Positions 2 through 42,021 of a stretch of 64,000 nucleotides of DNA are shown one piece after another; positions within the stretch are counted from its first letter, which is position 1; each line of letters begins with the position of its first letter. The DNA comes from Slackia sp. ZJ119 (GTDB taxonomy: Bacteria; Actinomycetota; Coriobacteriia; Coriobacteriales; Eggerthellaceae). The position numbers and the translations under genes were made by a program. Below the pieces are notes generated by a model that was given only the letters and a program-made list of their open reading frames with translations, had not been told where the DNA came from and ran no database searches. The stretch is from the NCBI RefSeq assembly GCF_011039175.1, contig NZ_JAAKEN010000001.1, forward strand, positions 124,001 to 188,000, read 5' to 3'.

Positions 2-3000
2 CTGGCTCGTGGCGCCGACCGTGCGTCCAACGACGCCGGCCTGACGGTCCCGGTGAAGCAGCCCATTGAAGGCACGCTGTTCAACGACGTGGACTATGAC
101 GGCAGGCTGGACATCGCGAACGGCCAAAACAACGCGACCGACAAACTGCTTGCCGGCAAGCGCGTCATCCTGAAGCAGTGGTACTGGGTGCCTGTGGACA
201 AGATCATTCCGGGCACCGAGACGATGAGCGACGGCAAGCCCGTTCCGGACACCGGAACGGTAAGCACCGGCCAGTGGGTGCAGTACGAGAACTTCGGCAA
301 CGACGCCTACACGTGGGCCGACCATATCTGGGAAGGCGACGCCTCCACCGGGTCCTATAAGGCACGTGGCGAAACGTCCTCCGACTACGACGGCGTCGTG
401 AAGCAGTTCGTCATCAAGAATTCGTACTACTACAACCCGGCCGAAGACGGCCTGACCGGCGATGCTGCAGATGCCGCCTCCGCCAAGGTGTTCGTCTACA
501 CCGACGAAAACGGACATTACAGCTTTACCGACCTGCCCACCCGCGTGGTCATCGAGCGCGGCGGCAAGGCTGACCAGGTGGCACAAGAGTACCTGGCCGG
601 CTACACGGTCGAAGTGCTGGGCGGCCCGGTGGCCGAGGGCGACGCGGACGCCGTGAACGGCCTGCCGGCGACGCCGCTGCAAGAAGGCTCGCTCGCTGCC
701 GACGACGTCAATTCCAAGGCGGTCAGCAACTTCGAGGCCAAGAATCTGCGCAGCGCCGAAACCGCGAACGTGAGCACCAACGTGTTCGGCCGCTATGACG
801 AGGGCAACTACCCGATCCTCTGGAACGAGCGCACGGTACAGCTTGGGTTCGGCGAGAACGGCACCCAGGCTCCGTTCAATGACAACGTGGAGACGGTGGG
901 CAACAAGGTTTCGAAGTCCACGTTCGACGGCATGATCGTGTTGGCGGGCCGCGGCACGCATGACGCCAACCAGGCGAGCGTTGCAACTGCCGGCACGGAG
1001 GTTTCGCGGGGCACGTCTTCGTGGTACCACGTGGCGGCGATCCGAAATGGCGCCGAGGCTCGCGGCCCCGTGGTGGCCGACGTCGAAGCGTTCAAGCCTG
1101 CGGAACCGACCGTCAACTACGCCAAACAGGACGTGCACTTCGACTGGTCGCTCGGCCTGGGCGGCACCGTGCCGTCGGAGAACAAGGGCGAGCTGCGCAT
1201 GAACGCCGGCTTCGGCGAGTTCGGCCTGTCCGACATCTCCGGCAAGGTGTGGCAAGACGGGAACTTCGACGGCGTCCTCAATCCGGGCGAGCTTGTCATG
1301 GCCGACGCCACGCTGTCCATCAGCCAGTGGTTCTTCGTGCCGGAAGGCACCAAGACCGCTGACGATCAGGACCTGATCACAAAGCTGAAGGCCGACACCT
1401 ACGTCAACGCTGCTGGCGACGCCGTCAAATCCTTCGAGTGGGATGACGTGGAGACTGCGAAGACTCCCGCAGACAACGAATACGCCAACGCCGCAGCGAC
1501 CAACGGCGGCAACGGCACATGGTTCCACGCCCTCAACGTCAAGCGCGTGCAGAAAACCAATCCCAACGAATTCGACGCTACCGTGAACGAGGCTGCCGAC
1601 ACGTACGAATGGCAGCTCGAAACGAACGCGAAGTCCACGTTCCTGCGCCAGGACGTGAAGCCGGCCACCAAGGGTGAGGCTCAAGAAGACAACACCAAGA
1701 CCGAAGGCGTCTACACGTTCACCGGCCTGCCGAGCTACGTCTACGTGGCCGACACGTCCGAACTGGCTGCGAGCGCGACCGAGGGCGGCACCACGCCGAC
1801 TGAAAACCCGGCTGAGCTTACGAGCGAGGACGACACCACGCCGACTGAGAAGGTCTACGACTTCCGCGTCATCCAGCCCAACGACGAGCCTGGCGCCGAA
1901 AAGCAGGCCAACCCGCTCACGTACGACCACATCTTCATGACGGGCTACCGCATCGAGATGGAAGAGGTCGCACCCAACTACGGCGTCACCTCGGTCCACG
2001 TGGGCGTGAACCTCGACAAGAAGTTCACGGGCAACGCGACGCTGTTTGACGTCTACAACAATGACGACGCGTCCAAGTGGGCCGACGTCGCGGGCAGCAA
2101 CCGTCCCGAAGACGCCGATTCCGACGCGGCGCATGAGGGCAACAAGATCCAGCTGACGCAGGAATTCTTCGACGGCTCGTTCAACGTGTCCGAAGACGGC
2201 AAGAGCCTGTCGATCAGCAAAGACACGCACCAGTCCACGAACAACAGCGATTGGCGCACCGACGGCTACGTCATCGTGGCCAAGCAGGGCGACGACGACC
2301 GTGACGACGTCCGCAACAACGACTTCCAGTACGAGCAGCTCTACAACGGCATTCTGTACGACTTCGCTCGTCCGGTCGCCGCGCAGCGCGGCGGCGACGT
2401 GGGCCTGGTTGACATTCCGCGCGGCGCCATTACCGGCGACGTGTGGGACGATACCGGCACGCGCAAGTGGGCCGACAGCACGAAGACCGGCTTCAGCGAC
2501 AAGTTCACCTACGACTTCTCGACCGGCTACAACGGCGTGTTCGACGCCGGCGAAGCGGGCATCCCGAACCAGACGCTGTACGTGACGCAGTGGTACTGGG
2601 TGCCGGCGCATACGGAACAGGTCGCCTCAACGAACAATGAAGGCGGGTCGACAACGACGATAAGCGACGTCCCTGGCAAGTGGGTGCGCAACACCGCCTT
2701 CGGCTCCGACCGCTACACGTCCGACCTGGTGGCGCGCAACTACAACGAGGCCGTTACCACGCCCTACGTCTACGACGGCAACCGCAACGCCGATGGCAAG
2801 CCGGCCGGCACGGCAACGACGAAGGTTCCTGCCTTCTCGACCATCCGCTATGCCGACAACGCCAAGAACCTGCTGCCGCTTGCGTACCACAGCAAGGCCA
2901 ACGGCGTGCTGCAAGTGCAGACGAACAGCGAAGGCAACTACCTCGTTGAAAACCTGCCGACCGTCTACGTCGACGACAACGACGTCTACTACCTGGCGGC

Positions 3001-6000
3001 GTATCGCGTCGAGCTGGCCGATCTTTACAGCGAGAAAGGCGGCAACGAGGTCGACGGCACCACCAACACGTGGGTGTTCTCGCGCTACCACAACACGAAG
3101 ACGTTCGCCGAGAACGAGAACCAGACGCATCGCTATAAGGCGAACCTGACCGCCGACAATGGCATGACTTCGGTCGTTGACGACTCCGACGTGGCCAACG
3201 GCGTGAAGACCGTCGCGATGAACGTGAACGGTGATGCCGCCGCGAAGGCCGAGCCGGGCATGGGCGGCTACGTGGTGAGCAGCCGCGTGAGCGCCACGTC
3301 GACCGGCGAGGCGTCCGACGGCAAGAACGGCAGCATAAAGACCACGCGCAACAACAACGGCCAGATCATCCTGGCGCAGAAGGTGACGCTGGCAGCCGAA
3401 GGTGCTGAGGCTGGCACGGTCGGCACTGTGAATGCAGAAAAGACGAAGGCTGGCGGCACTACGGCGACCGCGTCTACGTCCATCAACGCCAACGTCACGC
3501 TGCCCAAGGGCCAAGGCATGGGCCAGGAAGCTGAAACCTACGACTTCATGGCCGAGCCGTACGACGTGGTCGAGGCCGGCGACGTGGGCGAGGTCGAGCA
3601 GCCCAAGCAGTCCATCCGGGGCGTCATCTGGGAAGACCTCAATAACGATGGCTTGCAGACCAACCTGAACGGCACCGCCGCCGATGCTGAGCCGGGCGTG
3701 AAAGACATCGACGTCGTGCTCGAGCGTTACACGCTGACCGCCATTCGCCGCCAGGACGACGGCAGCTGGAAGGTTGCCGACGACGCCACCTGGCAGCGCG
3801 ACACGAGCGATTGGGCCAAGGCCGATGCGTGGTCTGCTTACGACAACGACCCGGCTTCCTACGAAGTTGGCGCTGACGCCAGCAATCCGCACGACCACAG
3901 GACGAGTCTTGCGACTGCCACCGTGCACCAGCAAGACGCGCGTCAGACCGTGACGGACGACAACGGCGCCTTCGCCTTCAACAACCTGCCGGCGTACCGC
4001 TACGTCCCGGCGAATGATGATCAGCCCGAAAAGGTCATCCTGTACGGCTACCGTGTGCGCGTCGTCTCGCTCGAATACTTCGACCGCGCATTCTCCGTGG
4101 CCAAGAAATTGCAGGGCGACGACTACACGGTCGATTCCAACCTGCAGTGGTCCGACGTCATGGCGGCCGACGGCTACCTGATGAGTACCGACTCGGAGGG
4201 CAACCCGGTCGAGATGGACGTGCTGCTCAACGTGGTCGAGGCCAACGACAACACCTACGAGTCGCCGAAGTCCAACCACCTGGTTGCGGTGAACCCGCGC
4301 AATATGAACCAAAACACCATTGACCGCTACGAGGCAGGGAAAGAAGCCAAGGATAGTGGCGCTACGTATAATCCGGTCATGCCGGAAGAAGTTATTGGTA
4401 CGGTAATAGTACCTGGTTCTGATGACGCTTCTACGAAGAAGACGATTGGCGTTGTCACTGAATGGAACAAGAAGACCGTTGACGGCAAAGAGGTCAACGA
4501 TACGCCGAAGACCGTGGACGCCAACGCCACTCTCACCTACGACCTGGGCCTGGGCGCCGACCGCGCCTCCAACGACGGCGGCATCCGCAAGCCGGCCTCG
4601 GCCGACATCGCCGGCATTGTGTTCAACGACGCCGACTACAACGGCCTGTACGAGCCTGGCGCCGACAAGGTCGACAAGCCGTTCGCTGGCAAGCGAGTCT
4701 ACCTGAAGCAGTGGCACTGGGCCGAGGTCGAAGGAAGCACTGCCGAGAAGCCCAAGTACGGCTGGGTCGAGTCCGAGAACTTCGGCAACGACTTCTACGC
4801 GCAGGCGTCGAAGGTCGCTTCCGGCCAGACAAAGCCTGCCAAGAGCGCGTGGGGTCTGGAAATCTACGGTGCCACGTTTGACGGCACCTACGGCGACGAC
4901 GGCAACACCGGCCGCGTCTACATCGACACGTTCACCGGCACCGACACGCTGAAGGATGCCAACGGCAACGCCGTCTTGGATGAGAACAACAACGCCATCA
5001 CGCCCGCCGCTGGCCAGTACCTGTTCACCAAGCTGCCGGCCCGCTATGTCGAGCGCTCCAAGCTGGACGCCAATGGCAAGCGTGTCGCCGGCAAGGAATT
5101 CCTCGCCGGCTACACGGTCGAGGTCGACGGCACCGCCGAGGGTGACACTTCGATGCACGGCCTGCCGGCCACCCGCAAGCAGGTCAACGCCAACGGCTTC
5201 GAGGCCAACGGCACGCAAATCCTCACCGAGCTGGCCTCCGTCAAAGACGACGTCAACTCCAACGCGTTCAAGACGTCCACGAACGACCCGGATTACACCA
5301 GCGGCAACTACCCGGTGCGCTGGAACGAATACACCGTGCAGTGGGGTGAGACCAAGAGGAACGCGAAGGACGAGAACGGCAACGACGTGAAGGTTTCGAT
5401 CGCTGCGAAGTCGACGCTTGACGGCCGTATCATCCTGGCCGCCAAGACCGCTACGGGCACCTATAGCGGTGCGACGCAGCCGCAGTACGTCCTTGAGACC
5501 ACGGGCAAGAAGATCAAGGGCGGCGAAGAGCCTCGCAGCGTCACGTTCGACTTTTCCGTCGGCCAAGACGAGAAGCGCATGAACGCCGGCTTCGGCCTGT
5601 TCGGCGCCACCACCGTCTCCGGCAAGGTGTGGCAAGACGAAGACTTCGACGGCATCTTCGAGCCGAACGCTGAGAACGATTCGGAGGCCGAAAAGGGAGT
5701 CAAGGGCCAGATCGTCCGCCTGGAGCAGTACTTCTGGGTGCCTGTGAAGAGCAACCTGCTGGAACTGCCGACTGGCATCACAAGGGAAAAATACACGATT
5801 CAGGACGTTTACCAGGGCGTTGCAGGAGCTGACAAGCCGAATGGCGACCTTAAGGGCGCTTGGGTGAAGGTGCCGGCTGCCGAATTCGTCGTGCCGGGTC
5901 AGAACAAGCCGAACCAGCAACTCGTTGAAAACAAGAGCCACTTCTGCGTCACGAACGACGACGGCGACTACGCCTTTGAAAACCTGCCCAGCTATGTCTA

Positions 6001-9000
6001 CGTCGAGAGCATTGACGGCAAGCCGCAGGTCATCCAGCCTGGCATGGTCGAGGGCACCTTTGACGCGATGCGCAACAGCACCGACGTGACCACCGACAAG
6101 CTGTACATGACGTCCTATCGCCTGACGCTTGACGAGGTCGCGCCCGACTACTCGCTGACGCGCCTGCATGTGGGCATCAACACCGAAACCACCACGGCCG
6201 AGGTAGATGCTTCTTCCAACAACGCCAAGATCGAGATCGGCAAGGAGATCCAGACGCGCCTGACTGAAAGCTACCAGGGCTTCTCTGACGAGGGCGTTGC
6301 CGATCCGAAGACCCCGACGTCTGTGTTCCGCCCGACCGAGGTCGGCCGGGAGCGCGTGGATGAAGGCACGAGCGACGACGCGAACGAAAAAGTCAAGGGC
6401 GACTCCGACGTGTCGCGCGACGATGCCGGCACGATCCACTTCAGCGAAGAGTTCTTCGACGGCGTGCTGAATGAAGCAGAAGCCACCAGCAACAGCCCCT
6501 GGCGCACCGACGGCTATGTGCTGACGTCCGACTACGCCGACGCCGGCGACGGCCATCAGTATCCGCAGAACTACGGATCTGGCGTTACCAAGACGGTCAC
6601 CTACGACGTGCCCGATCCGCTGATTGCGCAGTCCGGTGGCGACGCCGGCCTGTACAAGGTGCCGCGCGCTTCCATCGAAGGCCTTGTGTGGAACGACGGC
6701 AAGCATGGCTCCACTGATGACCGCACCTACAACGGCAAGCAGGACAACGGTGAGCCGGGCATTGGCGACGAAGTTGTGTATCTGACGCAGTGGTACTGGG
6801 ATCCCGAAGCTTCGGCTGTTGGAAATTCTGATACCGAACTTAATACTGAAGCCGCCAAGGGCGCCTGGGTGCAGAACCTCGAGTTCGGCAACGACCGCTA
6901 CACGGCGTCTCGCGAGGACAACGGCAAGACCATCCTGCCCGACGGCGCTTCGGGCCGCAAGCTGAAGTACGTCACCACTGATGGCCGTATGGTCGTGAAG
7001 ACCGTGAAGGGCGAGAACGGAAAGACCTATGCCCACGTTGTGAAATACGACCGCAACGGTGATCCGATTCGCAAGACTGACGGTTCCTTCGACACCGAGG
7101 AGATCGAAGTGACCGGTACTGCCAGTGCTGGCACCGTGGCCCTGAAGCCCGGCGTGCTGGCCGCCGTGACTGCCAATGCTGCGCAGGTGAAGGCAAGCGA
7201 GCAGGCTCATGCGGCGCAGTCGACCGAGCCGGTCAAGACGCTCGGCATGTACTACTTCAACGACCTGCCGACGGCCTACGTCACCGACAATGACGAGTAC
7301 TACTTGGCCGCCTATCGCGTGGAGCTGGCCGACGTGCAGCATACCGAAAGTCTCAACGGCGAAGACAACGAATGGCTGCTCACGCGCTACCACGCCGAGA
7401 CCGCGGTTGACGCCATCGACACCGAGAAGGTCATCACGTGCGCCGAGGACTCCGATGCCCAAGACGTCACCGAAACGGGCGTCGCCGGCGGCATCAAGGT
7501 CATGGGCTCCTACGGCATGAAGGGCCAGACGGCCAAGCAGGTTCGCGCCAACGACGGCCAGATCATCCTGGCGAAGGTGGTTGCGAACCGCGACAATCAC
7601 GCCACGAAGAACAACACCACCGACTACCAGAACGACGTGAAGTCCGTCCGGAGCGACGGTGTCCACTCCGATGCGGCGCACGTGGTCGTCCCGGCCGGCC
7701 AGGCCATGGACACCACGGGCGAGATCGTCTACGACTGGACGCGCGTCGACAACGACGTCAAGACCTTCAAGGGCGGCGACGTCGGCGAGGTGCAGGCGCC
7801 CATCCAGACCATCTCCGGCCAGGTGTGGTTCGACGACGACAACGACGGCCAGTATCCGGTGACTAAAGAGAACGACGAGCTGAAGATTTCCTTCGAGGAT
7901 GAGGGCAACAACCACACCGGCACGAAGGACCACCCGGCGGCGAACTACGAACTGACGATCGAGCGCTTCTACACGCTGCCCGACAGCACCAAGTGGATCA
8001 AGGATCCCGCTTGGGCCGACAAGCTCGTAAGCGACAACTCGAACACCACCGCCTGGGACGCCTACCTGCTCGACCCGACGCGCGGTCTGTTCGACGCCAA
8101 CACGGCGACGGATCCCGTTGCGGTTAAACCTACTGACGACAACCTCACCTATACCGAGTTCAACGAAGGCAGCACGACCAAGTACAAGGCCGAGGTGCTC
8201 CGCTCCACCAGGACCAACGACCAGGGCGAGTTCACCTTCCCGAACCTCATGTCGCAGGAATACCGCTACTTCAAGTTCACGAAGAGCGGCGACGACATTG
8301 TCGTCGACACCAATGCGTCGGCTATCTCCTATGACCAGCTGCTGGATCTTTCGGCCGATAAACAGGCGACGTACGTGAAGCAGCTCGTCATCTACGGCTA
8401 CAAGGTGCGCGTCACCGACGAGCGCTGGTGGAACCGCTACGACGGCACCGCGAAGTACCAAGTGGACAAGGACAAGGACGAATACGCCAACACCTACACG
8501 CACGACTCCGACCTCGTGTACGACAACGGCTACCTGATGGCCAAAGACGAGTACGATGTGCTGCTGCAGCAGGTCAACGGCGAATCGCCCATTTCGAACC
8601 GCCAGTGGGCGCTCGACTCCAACAACATGAACAGCGAAGCGAACAAGACGTTGGCAGGTGCTTACAAGCCTGCGGTCGCGGCAAAGGCGGCCACGCCCGC
8701 CATGGTCCTTTACGACCTGGCGCTCGGCAAGGACCGCAAGTCCAACGACGCTGGCCTGCGCGAGCAGGTGTTCAAGTCGATCAGCGGCATCGTCTGGCAG
8801 GATGCGGATGGTACGTTTAGCGAACTTAATTCTGAAACAGACTACAATGGCCTGCAGAACAAGCTGAACGAAGCGGACGGCGAGCAAGGCATCGCCGGCA
8901 AGCGCGTCGTCCTCAAGCAGTGGTACTACGTGCCGGGCGAAAACGGCGCGGCAGGCGTCTGGAAGCAGAACGAGAACTTCGGCAACGACCTGTACACGAA

Positions 9001-12000
9001 GGCCGCCGAAGGCTCCACTGCCGAGAATGTGCCCGATAGCATTCGGGCTATCGAGAACGCCACGCTCTACGGAAGCAACGCCGGCAAGGGCGTCTACACC
9101 GTCACGGCTGGCACCGACTTGGCCAGCAAGGTAGTGCTGGCCGACGGCACGACCCTCGCGCAGGGCCAGTACCTCTTCAACAACCTGCCGACCCGCTACA
9201 CCGAGCCTTATAAGCCCGGCACGGTGGCGGCCAACGGCGACAGGACCGAGCCGGCCATCGGCAAGGAATACCTGGCCGGCTACACGGTCGAGATCGAAGG
9301 CGGCAATGCGGACTACCAGATGCAGGGCCTGCCGGCCACGCAGCTGGAGCCCAGCGCGACCGCGGCCGACGAAGCCGTCAGCTCCAAGGCAACGAGCGCC
9401 CAGCGCACGCTTGGCACTGGCATCTACGGCGAGAACAACTACCCGGTGCGTTGGAAGGACGTCACCGCCCAGTACAACTACAACGAGACAACCGAAGGCG
9501 AAAAGACCATCGCCGACAGCAAGCACACGATGGACTCGATGATCGTGCTCGCCGGCAAGGCCGACGACGACAAGGCGACCCAGAGCTCCATCACGAACAC
9601 GACGGGCAAGACCAGCTACAACGACGCCGAAGCCAAGGCCATCTTCTTCGACTGGTCCCTCGGCGTCGACGCCCTCGACATGCACGCCGGCTTCGGCCAG
9701 TTCGGCACGGCCAGCATCAAGGGCTTCGTGTTCCAGGACAAGGACATCAACGGCTTCTACAACCCGACGATGAAGGAAGAGAACGGCGAACAGGTCCCGG
9801 TCTTTGAAGACGAGGGCGAAGGCGAAAACAAGATCGAAGCCAACGACAAGCCGCTTGCGGGCAAGACGCTGCAGATCCAGCAGTGGTTCTTCGTGCCGAA
9901 CGGCGCGAAGGCCGCTGACGGGACCACCGATCTCGTCCAGGCACTCGTGAATGCCGGCTACGTCAATTACTATAAGGGCGAAGGCGGCGTCGAGCTGAAG
10001 AGCACCATCCCGAAAGCCAATCCGGTCTCGAAGATCTCGAATGCCGACATCGACACGTCCGCTTCGGCTGACGGCGTGTGGGTGCGCTCGAAGAGCTTCA
10101 AGTACCAGAGCACTACCGGCAAGGGTGCTGACAGTGCTAACAACAAACTTGGTACGGGAACCGGATCCGATGAGAACGGCGAGTACCGCTTCAGCGACCT
10201 GCCCACGTTCGTCTACGTCGACGAGATCGTGACCGACGAGGCGAAAGAGACCAATGGCGCCAGCGCAGAAGCTAAACTCACCGACGTGCAGCCGTTCTAT
10301 CCGTCCGACCAGACCACGCCGAGCAAGGAAGAGGCCGAGCAGGTCACGGAAGACAAGCCGTATCTGGCTGCCTACCGCATTACCGTCGACCGCACCGAGC
10401 CGGCCTACGGCATCGCCTATCCGCACGAGGGCGAGGGCAACGGCATGGCGTCTACCGACAAGCCGGCCACCCGCACGAACGACTCCGACGCGCTGCGCGA
10501 GGCCGAGAACAGCTCGATCGTGAACCTGTTCGAAGAATTCGAGGGCGAAGCCACGGCCCACAACGAGGACGGCACTCCTAAGACCGACGAACGCGCCGAC
10601 CGCACCGACGGCTACGTCATCGTGTCCGCCGAGCTGAAGAACGTTGAAGGCAGCACCACCATCGCTGGCATCACGTACGACGCCAAGGACGGCAAGGAGA
10701 CCCCGGCTGCTAACAACGACGACCACGTCCAGACCCCGCTTGAGGGCGCCGCGATGGCAAACACGCTTGCCGGCGGCCAGTACCAGTTCGACGACAACGC
10801 GGCCGACCACACCTATCGTGCCGTGGCCTTCTACAACGGCAAGTACTACGACATCCCGCGCCCGGTCAAGAACGTCCGCGGCGGCGATCTGGGCCTCGTC
10901 GAGCTGAAGCATGCCACCATCGAAGGCACCATCTTCAACGATGCGAACTACGATGGCATCCAGGCCGACAACGAGCCCGGTATCAACGGCGAGCCCGGTA
11001 TCAACGGCGAGCGCGTCACGCTCACCCAGTGGTACTGGGTGCCGAAGGTCGTGGAGCAGCCGGTCAACGAGACGACAGGCGAAACCAAGCTCGTGACTAC
11101 CGGTGGTGAGTGGATCCAGAACAAGGACTTCGGCTACGACGTCTACACGGCCAACTGGGACGACGAGGCCGACCATGTGCTCGAGCCCACCGATTGGGAC
11201 TGGACCGAGTACGAAAACGGCGTCGTGTCCGTGACGACCGGCACCAAGACCGACCGCACCAAGGGCGACAAGAAGCTGGCAGACGGCCTCTACCAGTTCC
11301 GCAACCTGCCGACCATGGCAACGGTCGTCGTGCCTGGTGCGAACTACAGCACCGACAAGACCGACTGGACGTACGAGTACTACCTGGCCGCGTACCGCGT
11401 GTCGCTGCCCGACACGAAGACGACCACGTCGACCGACGTGAACGGCACGGTGCGCGAAGACCAGTGGCTGCTCACGCGCTACCAGGCGAACGGCGACGAC
11501 TACGCCGAGAACGCCAACAACTTCAATTCCGACATCGAAAGCGAAGAAGCCCGCACGTCGCTGACCAAGCCGCATACGGATGCGGTGACGCCGGACGGCA
11601 AGAATGCGGCCCTGGTTGCCAATGGCAACACGCTGGCTGCCTTCAATGCGATGGTCATCGCCGGCCATGCGAGCGTGACCGAGGTGCTTGCAGGCAGCCT
11701 CAAGGACGTCAGCGGCAAGAAGCGCGCCAAAGTAAAGGTCCGTCCGAACGAAGGCCAGATCATCCTGGCGCAGCAGAAGAAGGAAGGCGGCAATTCGAAC
11801 AACGTCGTGACCGTTGCTGGCGCCGCCAACACCGTTGACGGCTCCGAAGCCATCACCTACGACTGGATGGAGATCGACACGGTGGGCGAGGGCGCCGAGA
11901 AGAAGCCCAAGACGTTCTATGCCGGCAACGTCGGCGAGGTCAAGCCGAACCAGGGCAACATCATTACGGGTGTTGTCTGGGAGGACGTTGACGTTCGCAA

Positions 12001-15000: not shown

Positions 15001-18000
15001 GGCGAACAGCAACACCGAAAACAATACCAGCTCCTATCTCGGTACCACGACGGCCGACGGCCTGAACGCACGCTACGTCACCGGCGACAGCAAGGGCACG
15101 GTCCATACCGACAATGACAAGACGACCCTCGACTCGACCGCCTACGATGCCGTCTACCAGACCACCCGCCCGAACGTGAACCTGGGCCTGTACAAGGTGC
15201 CCACGAGCGCCATCAAGGGTTACATCTGGGACGACACCGTCTACGACGAGGAGAGGGCTTCCGACGGCATTCAGAACAAGCTGAATAAGGACGGCGAAGA
15301 GGGCGCCGAGCGCGGCCTGCCCAACCAGCCCGTGGCCGCCACCCAGTGGTACTACGTCCCGGCCGGCCATCCGTCCTTCGAAAATATCAAGGCCAGCGCG
15401 CCTGACGGCACCGTTGAGTATGTCTACGAAGGCGGCAAGCTGCCCGAGAAGTCCCTGGCCCAGCTGGTGACGGATCTTGACGACTTCGAGCTGGCTCAGC
15501 AGCAGAATCTTGTCAACCTGGGCGTTGCCGTCGACAATGCCAAGCTCGCCTTGCAGCAGGCCGACAGCGCCTTGACGCCGCTGAAGAACACGGTTGTCAT
15601 GGCGCAGGCCGCGGTCGACAAAGCCCAAGAAGAAGTCAAGCCGGTAACGGATGCGCGGACCACGCGCGACGAGAAGCAAACTGCGGTCGACAACGCCAAG
15701 AAGACGGTGAATGAATGCGAAACCGCGCTTGAGACGGCGAACAGCAACCTCAGCGAGCTGCGGACGGACTTGGCGAACGCACAAACCGAACTGGTCGGCT
15801 TGACGAGCGCGGCTGAACAGGCTACACAGAAGAAGAGCGACGCCAAGACGGCGATGGACGACGCCAAGACGGCGATGACCGCTGCCCAGAGCAAGCTTAC
15901 GGAGGAACAAGGCGAGCTCGCTCCGCTCACCCAGGCGAAGGAAAGCGCTCAGCAAGTCGTGACCAATGCTGGCGAAGGCGCGACGGAAGAGCAGAGGAGC
16001 GCCTTGGCAGCAGCTGAAGCGGCGGAAGCGGCCCAGCAGGCAATCATTGATGCAGCCCAGGATGACTTCGACGCAAAGAAGAGCGACTTCAATACCAAGA
16101 AGACTAACTACGAGGATGCTGACAAGGCAGCGAAAGAAGCCACATCTTCGGTTACGACGACGCAAGGCACCATCACAAACCTCCACACGCAAATCGCGAC
16201 GGCTGAGACGGCGCTCGAGAACGCGCAGACCAACCTGAACAAGGCGAAAGAAACCCTGGCTACCGTTCAGAATGAGCTGGCCGATGCCAAGACGAGCCTT
16301 GCCGATCTTGAAAGGACGTTCGGAGAAGCTCTCGAGCACCTTGCAAACGCGAGCAAGAGCCTTGAGGAAGCCACGGCCGCCCTGGTCGAGCCTGAGAACA
16401 CGCTGGACCAAGCGGAGCGGGCTCTTGAAAGCGCAGAAGATAACTTGGAGAATGCGCGCAGCGCCTTGGACGCCCAAATCAAGGACGCTGTCACGACGTG
16501 GGTCGGCACGGCTGACGTATCCGAGCTCGTCAAGGCGCGTGACACCGAAAACCCGGTCATCGACATCATCAATGCCGATCAAGGTACTGGTGGAACTACT
16601 AGTGAAACCTTGCGTGTCAAGCTCAACAATCGGATTGATGGACACCAGCCTTCCGGCGATGTCATCGGCGCTTGGGTGCAAAACGTCACGTTCGGCAGCG
16701 ACTTCATCACCACGACCGGCTTTGGCACCGGAAGCGTGAAACCGGTCGTCACGAACGGCGTGTCGAAGCAGGACAAGAACGCCAAGCAAAGCGTCATCGG
16801 CGTGAAGACTGCCGATGCCATCTACGAGATGGAGGGCGACAAGGTCAAACTCGACGAAAACAAGAACCCCGTTGTCGAAAACGCCAGCACGCGCGGCCGG
16901 TACACCTTCGACAACCTGCCGACGGCGGTTACGCGCACCAGCACTCTAACCGGCGAAGACGAGTACTTCTTGGCCGCCTACCGCGTCGAGCTGGAAGACG
17001 TGCATCAGGACGATGAGTTCGGTCCGTGGCACCTTACCTCGATGTATCAGGGCGCCAATGTCGGGATCGATTCCGATGCCTACAAGAACAACGAAGGCAT
17101 CGCCGGCAAGTACCAGATCGTGAACCGCTACAACAGCGGCAACATCGTCCGCAGCAACGACGGCCAGGTCATTTTGGCCGACACGGTTGATGCGAAAGAT
17201 GCGAACCTCATCGCGAAGAACTACTTCGGCCTGGCCAAGGTGCAGTCGCTCGATGCTGAAAGCGCCGAAGGCGACGTCACTTACCAGTGGACCAAGGCCC
17301 CCAGTGACAAGACCGCTGGCGACGTCGGCGAGATCAAGCCGGCCACCAGCTCCATCTCCGGCTACATCTGGTGCGACAACAACTATCGCGACGGCTTCTA
17401 CAACTACACGGGCAAGGCAAAGAACGAGCAAGACGACACGGAGCCGTACTGGGAGCCCGAGGAAGGCTACCACGGCGATACCATGGTGAAGGTCTTGCTG
17501 CGCCAGTGGTACTTCGTGCCCAAGTCCGACCCGGCGTTCGCTGGGCTGCTCAAAGAGTGCGAAAAGACGATCGGCGCAACGACGACGCATCCGTCGAAGC
17601 CTGGCAAGATCGAGTGGGTCACCACCGACGGCTCGTCCGTGACGGACGCAGAGACCGACACGAAGGTCACCGGCGCCTGGGTGCGCGTCGACGACTTCGG
17701 CGCGAACGACGAAGAGACCAATTGGTATCGGACGCAGGGCGGCGAAAACGAAATCGTAGACGACGTGAGCTTCCGCATCACGGGCACGAGGTCCAAGAAG
17801 CAGGACAGCGAGTTCGAGAACGGCTACTACGAGTTCAAGAATCTGCCGGTCCGCTATGTCGCCAACGATGACAGCAAGTACAACAACGCGGGCCGCGAAT
17901 ACCTGGCCGGCTACACGGTGTCCGTCTTGGGCAACCAGCGCCTGATGGTGACGGCCATCCAAAACGGTGCGGAAAGCACCATCGACCCGAGGCTTGTCGA

Positions 18001-21000
18001 CCCGAAGACCGGCGCCGTGCGGACTGACGTCGATCTGGACGAATGGAACTCCAATGCTCGCTCGATGGGCACGATGGGCACGAAGTACAACAACTCCAAC
18101 TTCCCGTTGGTGTGGAACAAGAGGTACTCCGACGACGGATCGAAGCACGTGCTCGACAAGGTGCTGGTGCTCGCGGGCCAAGCGGCTGGCGGCCAGTACA
18201 CGAGCGGCGCCGACTACAGCGAAATCATGACGGTTGAAGTCGAAGGTGCAGAAAAGAAAGTCACCCTCGAAAGCTCGGTGAAGTTCGACCTCACCCGCAG
18301 CAAGCGCGAATACCGCCTCAACGGCGGCTTCCAAGAGCCTCCGAGTGCCCCGATCACCGGCATGGTGTGGAACGACGAGAACTACAACGGCATTCGCGAC
18401 GAGGGCGAAGAGGGCATCCCTGGCGTGACGCTGCAGGTGAAGACGTATTACTGGGCGCCGAATCCGACTGAGCTTGATGCGGACGGCAATCCGATCTGGC
18501 AGTGGCATCCCTACGAGGTGCTTGGCGTCACGGAGAAGACGGTTACGTCCGACGGCTACACCACGCTGAAAACCGAGATGGGCGAGGGCGGCGCCCTGAA
18601 GCCGCCGCGCACCTTCGAGGCGAGCAAGGTCGGCGTGTACACCACCGATAGGATGCCGGTCAGCTGCACCGTCGACGGCGTTGAACGTCTGGCCGGCTAT
18701 CGCGTCGAAATGCTCGACGACGAGCAGCACAGGCTGCCGCTGGGTGCCACCTTGACGAAGGTCCACGAGGGCCGCACGTACAACGAGCTTGATTCTCTCA
18801 AGTACGAGTCCGACGCATACCGCACCGTCAACGCCGACGGCACGACGACGGTGTATCCGCTCATCAATCGCGCCGACGACAACGGAGCGGTGCGCGCCGA
18901 CGGTATGGTGATCACGGCCAAGCAGCTCGACACGGGCAAGAACGTTGAAGAGGACAAGCTTCAGGACTACAAGGGCATCACCTACGACATGTCCGACCAG
19001 AAGAACTCCGCCGACGGCGGCGACGCCGGCCTGGTCTTTGTGCCGCGTACGTCCATCGACGGCGTCATGTGGGACGACAGCTATCATCCCGAAGACGATG
19101 CCGTGAAGAACCGCGCCGCACGCAACCGCGCCTACAACGGCCTGCAGGACGAAGGCGAAGCCGGCCTGGCCGATCGCACGCTGCTGCTGACCCAGTGGCG
19201 CTACGTGCCCGCTGTCATGAACGAGAATCCGGACGGCTCCGTCACCGAGGTTGCCGCGAAGTGGGAGCAGGTCTCGGCGTTCAACACGCTGGCCGGCGAT
19301 CAGCTGGTGAAGGCGACGAAGCTTCTGAACAGCACGAAGGCTGCTGCGGTCGAGTCTGGCTCTGTCGACGATCAGGCCGAGGCCGACCTGCTTGCAAAGA
19401 CTGCGTTCGTCGAGAGGTGGATCGCCCATGCGACGATCGAAGAGCTGCAGGCCTTGGCCCGCGCCGAGGAAAACGGCGGCTACCAGGCCCTGAAGACGTT
19501 CATCGACGATTCCGATGAACTGAGCGCGATGGTCGCTGCTCGCTTGGCCGGCATTGACGTCGCCATGCTGAACGAAGAAGACGACGGTATGGAGGTTCTG
19601 CTTGAGTCTCAGGCGGCGAACGATCCCGAATTGGCCGTTCCCGCCAAGCAGGTAGAGGGTACCGCGAACATCGACAAGGGCAACGGCGTCGTTGCCACCA
19701 CGACGGGCGACTCGAGCGTTGAGAAGAACCTCGGCGTGTACTCCTTCAACGACCTGCCGAGCGCCGTGCAGAACTACGAATCGGCAGACGAGGAAATGGC
19801 GGACAACGGCATCGTTCCTGCCGTTGACGACATGCCGAAGCTCTACAACGACACCTATGCGCTCGCTTCCTACCAGCTTGAAGTCGCTGGTTTGGAAAGC
19901 GGCACCGCCGATGGCAACTACCTGCTGACCCGCTACCATGCGCCGCGCAAGAGCGTGAAGGAAACGACGGGCGCCGACGGCAAGACGGTCGCAGACGTCA
20001 CGTACGCCAACGACTTCGAGAACGATTCCGACACGAGGCTCATCGACCGCATCGGCGCAGCGAATGGCATGGTTGTGAGCGATCAGACGACCGTCGACCG
20101 CGTCCGCGTGAAGAACGACGCTGCCGAAAGCGAAGCCTCGCTGTCGAGTGCGCGTGCCGTCGTCACCGCGCCGACGTCTGACAGCTCCGCTCAAGGCGCC
20201 CTTATCGTGCTTGCCAGCGAGGGCGTCGACGACGAGGCGGCCGAGCAGAACGACAAGCTTGAGCGGACGAACCTCGCGTCCTTCAACGACTACGTGAAGG
20301 TGAAGGCCGACAATCTGCTGAACACCGAATACGTGAGCGACGTTTCCGGCCAGGTCGAATACGACTGGCTGACCATCGACGCCACGAAGCACCCCTACAA
20401 GAAGCTGTTGCCGGTGTTCGCGCAGACGCAGAAGAAGGACGAAGACGGCAATCCTGTGCTCGGTCCTGACAACGCCCCCGTCATGGTCGACACGAAGAAC
20501 GTGGCGCAGGACGAAGCAACCGGCGACTACCTGATGAAGAAGGTCGACGCTGAAAAGAAGCTGACCGTGAACGTCAACGGCGGCGACACCGGCGTGGTCA
20601 CTCAGACGAAGCAGAAGATCACCGGCATTCTGTGGAACGACAAGAACAACGACGGCCTGCAGAGCGCTGGCGAGACGGTGCGCGACGGCTACGACGTGGC
20701 CCTGGAGCGCTACATCTTCGTGCCGAATGCGGACGGCACGGGCGAATGGGTGCTCGACCGCGAGTTCACGCTGGCCATGAACGACGGCAAGACCGCTTAC
20801 ACGGACGCCTACAGCAACACGACCAAGACCGGCAAGATCACGCTCGGTCCGGCCACCGGCGCCGGCGCTCTGCTGGGCTTCGGCCAGGAACTGAGCGCCG
20901 ACAACCAGACCGTTCTGCAGAACGGCGCCTATGAGTTTGACAACTTGGATTCCGCAGGCCGCGTCGACCTGAACAAGGTGCGCTACGACGCCTACCTGCA

Positions 21001-24000
21001 GAAGAAGGCCGCGTACGACGCTGCTGAGGCTGCCGGCGAAACCGACATCTCTGCTCCCGCCGTGGTCAATGCTCCCGCTGAAGGCGACGTCCACATGCGG
21101 TGGGTCGTCTACGGCTACAAGGTGAAGGTCACCGACGATCGCGTCACAACGGGCCTGCAGCTCAAGTCCAAGTACCAGGTACGCGGACAGAACGGCACGT
21201 ACGAAAACGACTCCGACCTGGCCGACGACTGCTACCTGACCGCCAAAGACGAGTACATCGTCCTGCTCGACGTGGTCAACGCCGACGGTCGCACGGTCGA
21301 CGGCGAGCTGTCCAACCCCTCCAACATCGTCTTCGCTCCGGCGTCCAACAATGCCGACCAGCCGGCCGCCTACGTGGCGCCCGGCCAGACCGCACCTGCG
21401 CCCATGACGAACGAGCATGGTTATGTGGCCTACGACCTGGCCTTCGCCAGCGATCGCGACTCCAACGACGGCGGCATCATCGAACTGCCCACCTACAAGA
21501 TCGACGGTTACGTCTGGCAAGACTACGACTACAATGGCCTGTATGACGCCGAGGAGCGCTTCGTCTTCAACTACGTGCGCGACATCGCCGGCGACTTCGT
21601 CCGCTGCGACAAGGAAGGCAACTACTCCTTCATCGAGGGCATCGAAAACGGCGAGCCGGTCACGACGACTGGCACGGCGCTGGTTCCCACGCTCAAAGAC
21701 GACCTTGAAAAGTGGGCTGCCGAGAAAGCCACCGAAGACAACCCGCTCTATGTCCGCAACGCCGACAACGGCTATCTCATGGTTTCCGAGCTGGCCCATG
21801 AAGACGGCTACAACGGCAAACAGATCATCCTGAAGAAGTGGTACTTCGATCCGGAGGTCGTGCACCAGGAGGCCGTGAAGGAAACGGTCACGGCCGAAGA
21901 CGGCAGCACCTACGAGGTCACCAAGCGCGACGAGGAAACCGGCAAGATCCTGTATCGGGACGTCGCTGGCACCTGGCTGCTGTGGGAGAACGACTACGTG
22001 CCGGCCAACTCCACGGTTGCGGCTCCGACCGAGGCTGACGCCGACGCGACGAAGACCACCGACTACGGCGACTGGGCGACGCCTGAGCAGGAGACGGTCG
22101 ACGGCGTCACCGGCAACGAGATGCGCGACATCAACAAGATGCTGACGAGCCAACTGACGAAGCAGCAGACCGGCACCGACGAGCATGGCGAACCGCTGTA
22201 TGTCAGCGCCACCGACAAGGACGGCACCCCGCTGTACATCGGCACGTTCGGCGAGCAGACCACGGCTCCGGTTGCGGCCATCGGCACCACGCTCACTCAC
22301 ACGGATTCCCTGGATGGCTTCACGGACGAAGACGACAACACGAATCCTGAAGACGACGGCGAAATGGTGCTGCATCGCGACGGCTGCATCGGCGCCAAGG
22401 AAGGCTACTACTCCTTCGAAAACCTGCCGACGGCCTACGCGAAGCTGACGACCGATGCCGAGGGCAACGTTACCGGGTACGACTACTACCTGGCCGGCTA
22501 TACCGTGGAAGTGGACGGCTCCAATACCAACCAAGGCATGTTCTCGCTGCTGACCACCACCTACGAGTGGCAGACCACCGCCGACGACGCGATCAACTCC
22601 AACGCCGAGCCCATGGTGATCGCCGAGGACCACGCCATCGACGCCTCGCTCTCCAACGACGTGCTGTTCTATGAGAGCTACGGCGAGGGCAACTACCCGG
22701 TGCACCTGGGCAAGGAAAACATCCAGACCGTCACTGCCGTCGATGACGACAAGGGATCGATGAAGTACGAGAAGGGCGAAGGCATCACGAAGAACACCAT
22801 GGACGGCATGATCGTGCTTGCCGGCAAGGCGGAATATGAGACGGTTCCGAAACTTGATACGAATAACGAACCTGAGCTTGACGAGGACGGCAAGCCGGTT
22901 TACACGACGGGCGACAAGCTCCTGACCAACGACGAGTACTACCAGCAGTCGCGCACCTATCAGGTGGCCGAGTACGGCACCTCGACCGACGCCGACGGCA
23001 AGGTGACCGAGACGAAGAAGGACGTTCCCACCACGTCCGAGTTCGACTTCGCCATCGGCCAAGACCAGCAGCACCTCAACGCCGGCTTCGCGCCGCCGGA
23101 CCATACGTTGCTGAAGGGCTTCGTGTGGGAGGACAACGACAACGACGGCTACATGAGCACCGAAGACGACGAAGCGACCGGCGATGTCGCTGCCGACGAC
23201 GTTCCGATCGAAGAGGCCATCGTGTCGCTGTCGCAGTACTACTTCGTGCCCGATTACGACCGAGAAGGCCACCAGCTGGTAGAAGACGCCGACGGCAACA
23301 TCTTCTACTATGACGAAGACACTCCGGTGACGATCTACAATCCGTCCAAGGCGGACGAGGACGCCGGCAAGGTCACGGACAACAGGATGACCGAAGGCAA
23401 GCTGCGGCTGTCCAGCTCGGCGACGCTCGACGGCCATAAGCCGAGCAACATCATCGTGTCCACCGACGGCACCATCTATTACATCAGCGGCGGCCGTGCC
23501 TATGAGTACCAGCAAGACCGCGAGCGCATGGGCAAGCTCGTCGACTCCGGCACGTGGGTCCTGAACCGCAACTTCGACGGCTTCAACGCCACCGATGCGG
23601 CCGAGCCCGAGGGCTACGAGGCGGTGCGTGACATGGGCATCGAGTTCGCGAACTTGGCCGGCGAGAAGAACGCCGACGAAACGGCGAAGTACACCGAAGC
23701 CGACCTCGAAGCATACTTGATGACTTGGATCAACGATCCGAAGCGCACCTTGGCCGAGCTGCTGTTCCTCAACTTCGCCGAAGACGGCGCCGACTGCTTC
23801 GCCGCCCACAACTTCATCTTCGGCGTCGAGAAGACCGTCCGCGACGACGAAGGCAACGTTTCGACCGAGCTGCAAGGCGCTCACCCGGCCGTTGAAGAGG
23901 CGCTAGAGGCCGTCATCAATGGCATGGTCGAGGCTTGGATCAACGATCCTGCCCGCACCATCGCCGACCTTGAGACGGCGGTCCAGCAGCCGACGCAGAG

Positions 24001-27000
24001 CGACACGCAGCTGTACCAGCTGCACCAGTACCTGTACGGCACGCCGACGCCGGTCGTTGGCGAAGACGGCGAGCCGGTCTACGAAGCCGACGGCACGCAG
24101 AAGACCGAACTGGTCGGCGGCCATGACGAGCTGAAGACCAAGCTGGAAGGCCGCTTGAACGCTCTGAAGGCCGATGAAGAGGCAAAGGCCCAGCATGAAG
24201 CAGCCGTCAAGGCTGAGCTTGGCAAGCTGTGGAGCGATGTCGAGGCCATCGCCAAGACGAAGAAGGAACAACAGCAAAAGGTCGACGAGCAGGACAACCC
24301 GGTCGTTGACGAAAGCGGCAATCCGGTCATGGTCGAAGTCGAGGTCGCCGACGAAGAAGCCACGGCGCAGGCCAAGATCGCCGTTGTGGAGGCCTGGATC
24401 CGCGCTGCTGCCGCCGACGCTCTCGACACGCTGCAGGCGGCCATGCCGACTGACGACTACTACGGCCTGCACACGTTCGTGTACGGCGACGGCGCTGACG
24501 CGCCCGCGAACGACACGCTGCAGCAGGCCATCAAAGATCGCCGCGACGCCTTGACGGCGCTGGCGGCCGAGCCCGAAACGCCTAAGCCTGAGCCCAAGGC
24601 GTCCGAGCCTGAGCCCGAGACATCGGAAGAGCTCGTTCAGACTACGTTCGCTCGCCGCTTCGCCGCGCTCTTCGCGCTCGATTCGCTGAACGCCGAGGCG
24701 CAAAACGATGAAACCGACAAGTCGGTTGACGAGCTGGCGATCGCCGAGCTGCTGGCGAAGTTCGATGAAGGCATGGCCGCCATCGACGCTGCCGCAAGCG
24801 ACGAAGAGGCCAAGGCGGCCGCCATCGCCGATCAGGAGAAGCTGCTCGTCGACTGGATCAACGGGAAGGACCGCACGCTGAACGAGCTGAAGGCCCTCGA
24901 AAGCGAAGGCAACGGCAAGGCGTACCAATTCATCACCGAGACCGCGATGCGCAACAAGCTTGGCGAGGACGGCAAGCCGATCCAGCGGAACGATGCGAAC
25001 GGCAATCCGATGTTCGACGAAAACAAAAACCCGGTTTACGAGGTCGAGTCCGTCAACGTCCACGACGCCCTGGCCCAGGCTTACGCCAACGCGGTCAATG
25101 CGCTCACGCCTGATGAAGACATGAAGAAGGAGTCGCCGCTGACTGCGACCGAAGCCACGCGCCAGCCCTACGAGACCTGGATCCAGACCACGGCCGACGG
25201 CGCCTACCGCTTCTACGACCTGCCGGCCTATGTCCTGCTCGATGTGAGGGAAGACGACCCCATCGCTCCCAGCCCTGAATACATCCATCAGCCCACGAGC
25301 AAGAACACCAAGGCGATGCTGCACGGCGCGTCTGCCTCTGTCGCCACGCACGACAACGTGACCACCGGAGACGAGACCGAGCTGACCGGCGGCACGGTCG
25401 AGCTTGAAAACGATTTCGAGAACGCCACGCCGTACCTGGCCGGTTACGTCATCCATGTCATCAACGCGACCGACTCCAGCTACGTGGCCACGAAGTACTG
25501 CCCGCAGGCCGATCCCAGCCAGGTCGCCAACGACCTGCGCACCTACGTCGACAAGACGAAGAACACGCTTTCCGGCAACCTCAACGGCAACGACGCCAAC
25601 GAATCGGTGGCCGTGGTGGCGGTCGATGACCAGAAGGAAGGCGCCACGCTGTTCGATCGCTATACGGTGTCTTACAAGGCGAAGGAGTACGACCTGGCCA
25701 ACCGCCTGTCCGAGAAGAACGCTCCGAACGCCGGCCTCACCAAGCAGGCGCCGGTGCTTGTTTCCGGCCGCGTGTGGAACGACGACGGCAACGGCGTCGA
25801 AGATGCGGGCGAGACCGGCGTCGCCGACGCGCTCGTGAAGCTGACGCGTTACTGGTTCGACGTCGAAGGCATCGGTGTGGTCGAGGAAAAGAGCGACGCG
25901 GCCGTCATGGATCCGTCCATCACCCGCGAGCTGACCGACATCGCCAAGGAGCACGACTACATGAGCACGTCGCAGGCTCCGCAAGGCACCACAGAGGAAG
26001 CGAAGCAACAGAGCATCGAGGCGTACGGTTTGTACGAGGACCTCTACAACTGGATCACGGAACACGAGGAAGACTACTGGGCGCTGTACGCGTTGCAAAA
26101 CGCGCCTGAGGACTACCTCTACAGCGACCTGAAGAAGTACATCTACGGCTACAGCTACCAGAAGAACGGCGAAAGCGTGCTCGTGCCGCCGCAAGAGCAT
26201 CTGGGCAAGAACGGCGAGACGCCGGAGAACCAGACGAGTCTGAGGATGTATCTGGAAGAGTGCTTGTCGAAAGCCAACGTCGGCGAGATCACCGAAGCTG
26301 ACAAGGGCGTGTGGCGCCTCGACCGCACGTTCACGCAGGATGACGTGTACACGCTGACCGAGAACGTGGTCGAAGGCGTGACGCCCGACGCCGCCAAGCC
26401 GCTGACCGACGACGAAATGCTCCAGGGCGTCACCGACGAATTCGACCTGGAAGCCTGGAAGGACTACCTTGAGCTTGATCCCGACACGGGCGCCACGAAG
26501 CAGGCCGCATACGCGTCGTCCATCTCCACGGGCGACTGGGCCTTCACGGTGCCCGCTACCGGCGAGCACGAGGTCATGGGCATCAGGCCCAACGTCCTGT
26601 ACGGCTATCGCGTCGAAGTCGTGCATTATCCCGCTTCCGCCGACGAAGCGGCTGCCGAGGGCGGCTCGCACGGCTACGACTACTACAAAGAATCGTTCTA
26701 CGTGCCGTCGACCCAGCATGTGGGCGTTTCGACTGCCGAAGACGTGGCCGCCGGCAAGATCAGCGAGATGGACCCGGTGAACTCCGACATGAACGTGAAT
26801 CCGGAAACCGGCCAGCTCATCCAGGTGAAGACCGACGCCGGCATCAGCGAATCCGCGATGCTCGCGCCCAATGAAATCGACGTTACCTTCGCCGGTCCGG
26901 TCTCTGAGGCGGGCGTGGCCAACACGGGCGACGAGGCGTACGCCAGCTTGCTCAGCCCCGACCTCATCACGCTGGCCAACTTGGTCGAACCGGGCGACAA

Positions 27001-35088: not shown

Positions 35089-37008
<1,920 letters not shown>

Positions 37009-37013
37009 CGCCC

Positions 37014-37700
37014 ATGACGCCGAGCAAGCCCACCCAGGAACGCACGGCATCCGGCGCGTCTTCCGCCGACGAAGCGCAGCAGGCTGGCGCCGCCCAGCCT
37101 GCGGGCGCAGACGCAGCCGACGCGACCGCCGAAGCCGTCGTGATCGACGCCGAGCCGAGCGAAGCCGAAGAGGCCGACGCCGAGCCTTCGGCCGAAGAGG
37201 CCGCCGCGAAAGCGATCGAGGACCTTCGCGCTGAAAAGCAGGCTTGGGAAGACCGCTACCTGCGGCTTCATGCGGAATGGGACACCTACCGCCGCCGCAC
37301 CGCCGAGCAGCGCGAAGCCGAAAAGGCCCGCGCCACCGAAAAGCTCGTGACCGACCTCATCCCGGTCATCGACGACTTCGAGCGCACGATCGCCTATGCC
37401 GACGAGCACGGCGAACAAGGCCTGCTCGACGGCGTGAAGGCCGTGTACTCGAAGCTGGGAAGCGTGCTGGAGCGCAGCGGCGTCGTGGTGCTGAACCCCG
37501 TGAACGAGCCGTTCAACGCGCTGGACGCCCAGGCCGTCGCCACGGTGGAAGACAGTTCCGCCTACGACGAGACCGTCCGCGACGTGTACCAAAAAGGGTA
37601 CAAGATGGGCATGAAGGTGCTCAGGCCCGCCATGGTCACCGTGACCTGCGGCGGTCCGAAGCGCGAGCCAGCGCCCGCCGAAGACGCAGACCAAAAATAG
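37014..37700 (+). CDS. grpE: Nucleotide exchange factor GrpE
   Basis: 228 residues. A disordered Ala/Glu-rich N-terminal tail of about 70 residues precedes the long coiled-coil dimerisation helix and the C-terminal beta wing. The conserved core is clear: DRYLRLHAEWDTYRRRT, then LIPVIDDFERTI, NPVNEPFNALDAQAV and GYKMGMKVLRPAMVTV. GrpE releases ADP from DnaK. It starts 5 bases after dnaK. A strong hairpin (37711-37741) follows its stop codon and may lower expression of the downstream dnaJ, hspR and clpB genes. Confidence 0.97.
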   Translation: MTPSKPTQERTASGASSADEAQQAGAAQPAGADAADATAEAVVIDAEPSEAEEADAEPSAEEAAAKAIEDLRAEKQAWEDRYLRLHAEWDTYRRRTAEQREAEKARATEKLVTDLIPVIDDFERTIAYADEHGEQGLLDGVKAVYSKLGSVLERSGVVVLNPVNEPFNALDAQAVATVEDSSAYDETVRDVYQKGYKMGMKVLRPAMVTVTCGGPKREPAPAEDADQK

Positions 37701-37710
37701 CATGACGCGA

Positions 37711-37741
37711 CAAAGGCGGGCTGGCAAAAGGCCCGCCTTTG
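37711..37741 (+). terminator. Hairpin between grpE and dnaJ, possible attenuator
   Basis: Perfect 11-bp arms (CAAAGGCGGGC with its complement) enclose a 9-base loop. It is placed within the operon, 10 bases after the grpE stop. No T-run follows, so partial termination or RNA processing is more likely than a full stop. Confidence 0.6.
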
Positions 37742-37795
37742 TCTCACAAGCCTGACCAAACACATCATCATTAAAAGCAAGGAGGTGGAGCGTCC

Positions 37796-38737: not shown

Positions 38738-39141
38738 GCGCATCGCACACCGACCGCGACCGTCCGCTGTACATGATCTCGGTGGCGGCGCAGCTCGCGG
38801 GGGTCCATCCCCAAACGCTGCGCGCGTACGAGCAAAAGGGCCTGGTCACGCCCCAGCGTACGAGCGGCAACACCCGCATGTATTCCCAGGCCGACATCGA
38901 CCGTCTGGAACTCATCAACGAACTGACCAGCGAAGGCATCAATTTGGCGGGCGTCATCCGCATCCTCGATCTGGAAGGCCGCCTCGACGAGCGCGACGCC
39001 GAGATCGACGACTTGCACAAGCGGGTGCGCCGCTTGGCCGACCGCGTCCACGAGCTGGAAACGCGGGAAAGCGTCACCGCGCTCGTGCGCGTGGCCGACC
39101 TGCCGGCGGCGACCCACCGCCTGCCGGGCATCCATCCGTAG
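38734..39141 (+). CDS. hspR: Heat-shock repressor HspR (MerR family)
   Basis: 135 residues. The N-terminal winged helix of the MerR type ([44 protein letters not shown]) is followed by a coiled-coil helix (about 80-118, [20 protein letters not shown]) and a short tail. HspR binds HAIR sites together with DnaK and represses the heat-shock operon at normal temperature. A HAIR site overlaps the dnaK promoter in this window. The ATG overlaps the dnaJ stop codon; an upstream in-frame GTG at 38725 is less likely. Confidence 0.95.
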
Positions 39142-39155
39142 GATCGCGACCGCTT

Positions 39156-39199
39156 CGAAGCCTGCGGCCGCAGCGCGTCCGCGGCGCCTGCAGGCTTCG
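39156..39199 (+). other. Hairpin between hspR and clpB
   Basis: 10-bp arms (CGAAGCCTGC with its complement) enclose a GC-rich 24-base loop. It lies inside the operon, 15 bases after the hspR stop codon. Confidence 0.5.
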
Positions 39200-39270
39200 G
39201 CGGCTTCCGCTTGCGCACCGGTCTGGCCTGCATCAACCAACGCAACAACAAAGACAAGGAGGCCCCGTCC

Positions 39271-42021
<2,751 letters not shown>

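Follow-up and report, generated by a model that had tools for sequence, protein, structure and literature searches.

An ordered four-type array of SdrD_B-type modules, kept across genera, in a giant LPXTG-type surface protein of Slackia sp. ZJ119

Repeats in bacterial surface proteins often act as fast-changing dials of length. Giant surface proteins are already recorded in the family Eggerthellaceae, where AEQU_0093 and AEQU_1251 of A. equolifaciens DSM 19450 (74.8 and 74.2 kb) encode putative giant LPXTG surface proteins, and the available part of that account deals with length, composition and the LPXTG motif (PMC3778203). Here we analyse a giant gene of the same family in Slackia sp. ZJ119, whose 2.84-Mb genome is assembled in 40 contigs. 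Its C-terminal third lies in a stretch of 64,000 nucleotides (contig NZ_JAAKEN010000001.1, positions 124,001 to 188,000, or G000:C12:124001-188000), hereafter the window. Several homologues found in this study are similar in size to the A. equolifaciens genes (22-25 thousand codons), while the super-repeat and the comparison among genera described below come only from the present analysis. In staphylococci, the sortase-anchored proteins SdrD, SdrG and UafA carry B domains, which in SdrG are two, B1 and B2, with 45% identity (PMC6232131). The giant resembles these proteins in the predicted fold of a B module, in the sequence signature at the start and end of the domain and in sortase anchoring, but it has 26 modules of ~200-980 amino acids (aa) with long inserts, in four alternating types. 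A comparable layout is found in the A-band of titin, where types in fixed order (-AC-ABC, fibronectin type III with immunoglobulin (Ig) domains) recur in blocks that arose by segmental duplication and are conserved by position (PMC10665226). By analogy the giant is titin-like, having a fixed-order multi-domain unit repeated by segmental duplication, although protein and fold are unrelated and the titin copies match the myosin lattice, no such partner being known for the giant. Periscope proteins such as SasG, Rib and Sgo_0707 also project an N-terminal part on a wall-attached stalk of tandem domains. Unlike their repeats, which are nearly identical (at least ~80% identity) and vary in number among strains (PMC8201768), the modules of the giant number 26 in 12 proteins and 22 in two, so that among the proteins compared their number is fixed save for two losses of one unit. 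The adhesin of Mobiluncus mulieris is likewise a giant with tandem Ig-like domains (51 in 7651 residues) and a cell-wall anchor; it is about four times shorter, has ester and isopeptide cross-links, and the available part of its report describes no four-type super-repeat (PMC10619420). Larger bacterial proteins exist, such as one of 39,678 aa in Omnitrophota (PMC10066038). Giant LPXTG genes, B domains and titin super-repeats are therefore already known, whereas for an ordered four-type array and its conservation across genera we found no description in the open-licence literature.

The giant gene is a single open frame on the forward strand that extends past the left edge of the window. With the upstream sequence, the whole frame occupies G000:C12:62031-153422 and contains 30,463 stop-free codons; translation probably begins with an ATG near codon 70, after a GAAGGAGG site, which gives a protein of 30,394 aa and 3.3 MDa. 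The window thus holds the C-terminal, wall-proximal third of a protein with the features of sortase anchoring: an in-frame hydrophobic segment at the N-terminus (a signal peptide as judged by eye), an LPQTS motif, a hydrophobic segment and an RRRR tail at the C-terminus, and sortase genes in the genome (PF04203 matches). The genome also encodes two paralogues, with open frames of 34,927 codons (contig C39) and 22,174 codons (contig C2); the three are colinear end to end and together make up about 9% of the genome. The N-terminal ~19,000 residues, encoded upstream of the window (G000:C12:62031 to ~120800), have almost no Pfam match, yet they align colinearly with homologues from other genera. 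Within this part, residues 2500-4400 hold an internal repeat of ~300-400 aa. An assembly artefact or accidental open frame was considered and rejected: a genome of the same genus, assembled as a single contig, has a homologue with 30,639 open codons, and other genera have colinear frames that stay open for 22-27 thousand codons. Since some 20,000 codons remain open and colinear from one genus to another, we regard the frame as a real gene under selection.

The C-terminal third carries 26 SdrD_B-type modules in the order CD-ABCD-ABCD-ABCD-ABC-(no D)-ABCD-AB-XYZ. The junctions were located with a profile of the closing strand, [DN]-[AVG]-G-[LFE], followed by the opening strand, I-x-G-x-[VIL]-W-x-D, which often runs into D-x-D-G. 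This profile finds 27 sites in each of the three paralogues, corresponding to one divergent module and then 26. The array begins upstream of the window, with a C module at window position -2989 and a D module at -1267, so that modules 3 to 26 lie inside (Table 1), and it ends with three cap modules, X, Y and Z. A sequence-only reading of the window had described four module types recurring in fixed order over six blocks, as a heritable four-domain segment. The four types, recurring at every fourth place within one open frame, and the repeating order stand, but the region 62-25760 holds 21 modules rather than 24 (4+4+4+3+4+2). Block 4 has no D; it seems four modules long because its C module, 17C, has a coiled-coil-like insert. 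Block 6 consists of A and B only, and its B is divergent. The block start that this reading placed near 17351 is indeed a type A module (17354), preceded by the closing strand of a C module, and what it took for terminal linkers is the closing beta-strand of each SdrD_B domain. Its block length of 4.2-4.5 kb does not hold for the family, since successive A modules are spaced at 915-1292 aa in one paralogue and at 1718-2169 aa in the other. Large helical-looking inserts are present in modules 17C, 20C (19055-20617) and 23 (23111-25759), among them a stretch resembling a coiled coil and repeated motifs of the WI..T..EL..L kind, and all three modules are far shorter in the third paralogue. There, 17C has only 328 aa, so that the coiled-coil-like insert is missing.

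The periodicity of four is evident from the similarities among modules. In the uninterrupted run of 17 modules, those four places apart (lag 4) have a mean BLAST similarity of 74 bits; the value is 71 bits at lag 8 and 57 at lag 12, against 16 bits at lag 1 and 12-30 bits at lags other than these three. None of 10,000 shuffles of the order reaches the lag-4 value, and the paralogues behave in the same way. In a tree of 78 modules, types A (support 100), C (98) and D (94) each lie on one side of a branch, as does B (92) except for module 23, whose inclusion is not rejected (approximately unbiased (AU) test, p = 0.40). On 222 core columns, the module nearest to a given one in its own protein mostly shares its type, and the nearest in the paralogues almost always has its position number. 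Copies of one type are ~30-50% identical (maximum 53% on core columns) and are never adjacent in long arrays; among them, A, B and C each have their closest pair in blocks 1 and 2, and for D these two blocks come near to a tie. Module n therefore groups with n+4, as the sequence-only reading had predicted, and a clustering of adjacent modules, which would have spoken against it, is not seen in the tree. Simple tandem duplication of single modules was considered and rejected, adjacent modules not being the closest by tree or lag similarity.

The four-domain order is kept, domain by domain, in relatives across several genera. Of 138 genomes of the family, 20 gave matches in a search with the C-terminus of the giant; they belong to 5 of the 48 genera, and many of the matches lie in frames of 20-30 thousand codons. 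No match was found outside the family in samples of the class (398 genomes) and the phylum (396 genomes). Nine further arrays, from eight other genomes, were read together with the three paralogues, giving a first set of 12 from four genera (g1, g2, g24 and g33). All 12 have exactly 26 modules in the same order. Best hits between proteins fall on the same position number in 3363 of 3432 cases (98%, where ~4% is expected by chance), and 67 more fall on the same type. A 13th array of 26 modules was found in G079. In the fifth genus (g38), the one protein read has a shorter, irregular array. A frame of ~10,000 codons at G088:C25:8000-42184 (L103, L104) has 16 short modules (~200 aa) in an irregular order rich in A and B, and is possibly a separate amplification.

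Changes in module number are whole units where they occur. Arrays of 22 modules occur in a second giant (G002b) of an A. equolifaciens strain and in the main giant of a congeneric species (G003); both lack exactly 7A-8B-9C-10D and retain the same array end. A sliding comparison at the site of loss shows that 6D stays 6D-like to its end and that the next module is 11A-like from its first residues. The absence of exactly one in-phase unit from two proteins, together with the grouping of n with n+4 and the closeness of blocks 1 and 2, supports the heritable four-domain segment of the earlier reading. In a tree of the 21 shared modules (6,109 columns), G002b and G003 stand apart and their grouping is rejected (AU p = 0.005, a value to be taken as indicative, as the pair was chosen after the arrays were seen). 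Since the two are not sisters, either two losses took place or one loss was moved by recombination. That a single loss spread between species is a real possibility, which we hold slightly the less probable of the two: the same four modules are missing at the same boundary and giant genes do exchange, as the mosaic described below indicates, but the tree of shared modules keeps the two proteins apart. Shorter giants of 10-13 thousand codons show what a single unit may look like. Their arrays read pre-C-D-A-B-Y-Z in G135 and the second gene of G078, and C-C-C-D-A-B-Y-Z in the second genes of G134 and G003, these type calls having modest BLAST scores. They thus have a minimal C-D-A-B cycle between caps like those of the long arrays, and amplification of this cycle between fixed ends is the simplest history. 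As block 4 lacks its D, 17C is joined directly to 18A, and all 15 long arrays keep this junction.

The history of the gene can also be followed in its substitutions. Compared with its closest relative (G136), the giant gene has 0.37 nonsynonymous (dN) and 0.65 synonymous (dS) substitutions per site overall, a ratio of ~0.57, and dS changes about fivefold along the gene, being 0.2 at the C-terminus and 1.1 near the N-terminus; saturation and the choice of alignment limit these figures. When the giant (window 2-29422) is set against its relative at G136:C1:102353-194272, identity is 91% at the C-terminus and ~36-77% elsewhere. This shift in identity and dS is the reason to suppose recombination between giant genes, and by these rates the gene appears to be under moderate purifying selection with a mosaic history. 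Modules of the same type have a DNA identity of 50-60%, and no exact repeat of at least 60 bp was found within the gene. Such low identity between the copies would explain why module number scarcely changes.

The relationship of the modules to staphylococcal B domains is seen in profile and structure comparisons. The Pfam family SdrD_B (PF17210) matches with 40.1 bits over window positions 25001-29422 and with 37.8 bits in the module preceding the array (cut-off 29.7), while single array modules score 14-28 bits or are unlisted, so that membership holds for the protein and not for each module. Two AlphaFold2 models, built from alignments of 10 rows, reached a mean predicted local distance difference test (pLDDT) of 57 and 51 and a predicted template modelling score (pTM) of 0.55 and 0.48. 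In these models, B module 8 (model residues 332-686) matches UafA (Z 12.0) and the B1 domain of SdrD (Z 11.4), with a root-mean-square deviation (rmsd) of 2.0 over ~115 residues at 24-25% identity. For the C-D-A model, of low confidence, SdrD and UafA also rank first (Z 10.2, rmsd 12.3; Z 9.4, rmsd 3.0). A sequence search of solved structures returned nothing beyond weak matches to UafA. The predicted B module thus shows a fold relationship with the staphylococcal B domains. In the B1 domain of SdrG, three Ca2+ ions raise the unfolding force to more than 2 nN; the most important of them, Ca3, is held by aspartates on the first and last strands (PMC6232131). The opening-strand aspartate is kept in 298 of 300 modules of the giants, and the closing-strand aspartate in all 60 D modules, 59 of 72 C, 47 of 72 B and 5 of 72 A modules. 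As far as conserved residues indicate, Ca2+ therefore probably stabilises the stalk at the strand-closing aspartate pair in most modules of types B, C and D. Since the closing position of type A is mostly asparagine, Ca3 may be missing there, and type A may be the weaker link of a Ca2+-stiffened stalk.

Taken together, these results make it likely that the wall-proximal stalk of 26 SdrD_B-type modules arose by ancient amplification of a four-domain cassette and then became a frozen array. An ancestral C-D-A-B cycle of four already distinct domains, of which a single copy would survive in the short paralogues, would have been amplified as a cassette before the compared genera and paralogues diverged, and one D would have been lost early. 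The copies would then have diverged until recombination among them became rare and the array froze, each position having its own identity and being inherited vertically. The outcome would be a stalk of nearly fixed domain number in which neighbouring domains are always dissimilar, probably stiffened by Ca2+ at this aspartate pair in the majority of modules of types B, C and D, and holding the 19,000-residue N-terminal part off the cell wall. Several points weigh against this reading. Most single modules fall under the SdrD_B cut-off, probably through their long inserts, and the AlphaFold2 models are of low confidence. In type A, the closing position is asparagine in 50 of 72 modules, and the conserved aspartates are equated with the Ca3 ligands by strand position rather than by residue-level alignment. 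Several of the compared genomes are drafts.

Why the order has been kept can be explained in other ways. The sequence-only reading had proposed that each type packs on specific neighbours, the block being a structural repeat. All long arrays keep the same order and number, save where a whole unit was lost, and both losses are in phase, so that the surviving junction is still D-A. However, segmental duplication alone suffices for a repeating order, and neighbours can change, as the conserved C-A junction and the short paralogues with C-C-C-D-A-B make clear; these tolerated alternatives argue against a strict need for packing. Domain sizes and inserts also differ about twofold between paralogues, and the block models predicted in search of interfaces are too weak to define any. 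We therefore consider packing unlikely. A better, though still tentative, possibility is that the order keeps adjacent domains dissimilar and thereby limits misfolding between neighbours, with no need for contacts. Large multidomain proteins usually have less than 50% identity between neighbours, which has been proposed to limit misfolding (PMC8201768). The giants fit this rule: across the 12 proteins similarity is lowest between direct neighbours (19 bits at lag 1, against 88 bits at lag 4), and no neighbours of the same type occur in long arrays. Against it, C-C-C runs occur in the short paralogues, and duplication of a mixed cassette without selection would also yield dissimilar neighbours.

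It is rather improbable that, as in titin, each position binds a given partner or sits at a given place, with selection on identity beyond ancestry. Position identity is kept across paralogues and genera, and the super-repeats of the titin A-band show positional conservation tied to thick-filament partners (PMC10665226), but vertical inheritance in which modules do not turn over leads to the same picture, four modules are lost from two of the proteins, and a dN/dS of ~0.5 indicates no strong constraint. The more elaborate proposal of 26 individually addressed positions, in which each block would combine three Ca2+-clamped modules with a weaker type A module, acting as a mechanical fuse at regular intervals, and identity would be selected for partners or stalk length, is equally improbable. 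Amplification of a cassette followed by freezing of the array remains our preferred explanation.

Table 1. Features of the giant gene in the window
Feature	Position	Strand	Basis or internal boundaries
C-terminal third of giant surface protein	2..29422	+	open frame
Module 3, type A (block 1)	65..1234	+	junction profile, tree
Module 4, type B	1235..2428	+	junction profile, tree
Module 5, type C	2429..3613	+	junction profile, tree
Module 6, type D	3614..4606	+	junction profile, tree
Modules 7A-8B-9C-10D (block 2; missing from two relatives)	4607..8779	+	boundaries 4607, 5615, 6674, 7811
Modules 11A-12B-13C-14D (block 3)	8780..13138	+	boundaries 8780, 9716, 10919, 11963
Modules 15A-16B-17C (block 4, without D)	13139..17353	+	boundaries 13139, 14006, 15212
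Heptad-like, coiled-coil-like insert within module 17C	15452..16460	+	coiled coil judged by eye
Modules 18A-19B-20C-21D (block 5)	17354..21499	+	boundaries 17354, 18353, 19055, 20618
Modules 22A and 23 (divergent, B-like) (block 6)	21500..25759	+	boundary 23111; large helical-looking inserts in 23
Cap modules 24X, 25Y, 26Z and linker	25760..29284	+	boundaries 25760, 27863, 28469
LPQTS sorting signal, hydrophobic segment, basic tail (RRRR)	29285..29422	+	Gram_pos_anchor below cut-off

Some further observations concern the giant genes and their surroundings. In the second paralogue, which lies outside the window, the signal-peptide region is closely followed by a run of 13 G (G000:C39:10143-10155; L021:10143-10155), and across this run the frame of the signal peptide is not in phase with that of 34,927 codons in the assembly. 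This looks like either a slipped-strand phase-variation switch of the giant gene or a homopolymer sequencing error; no such G tract is present in the window's own giant. The strand opposite the giant gene carries open frames of up to 3,703 aa within window positions 2627-13738 (-), and we take them as a probable by-product of its composition. Downstream of the gene, positions 35104-42021 carry dnaK, grpE, dnaJ, a probable hspR and clpB. This chaperone operon was considered as a functional partner and judged a chance neighbour, as the order is shared only with the close relative G136 among the flanks examined.

In this giant family, a four-domain super-repeat would thus have arisen, become frozen and been inherited position by position across genera, its rare changes being whole units. 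The family offers a natural system in which to ask what sets the length of a stalk, whether dissimilarity between neighbours matters in folding, and whether ordered mixtures of mechanically strong B domains are in use outside the staphylococci.

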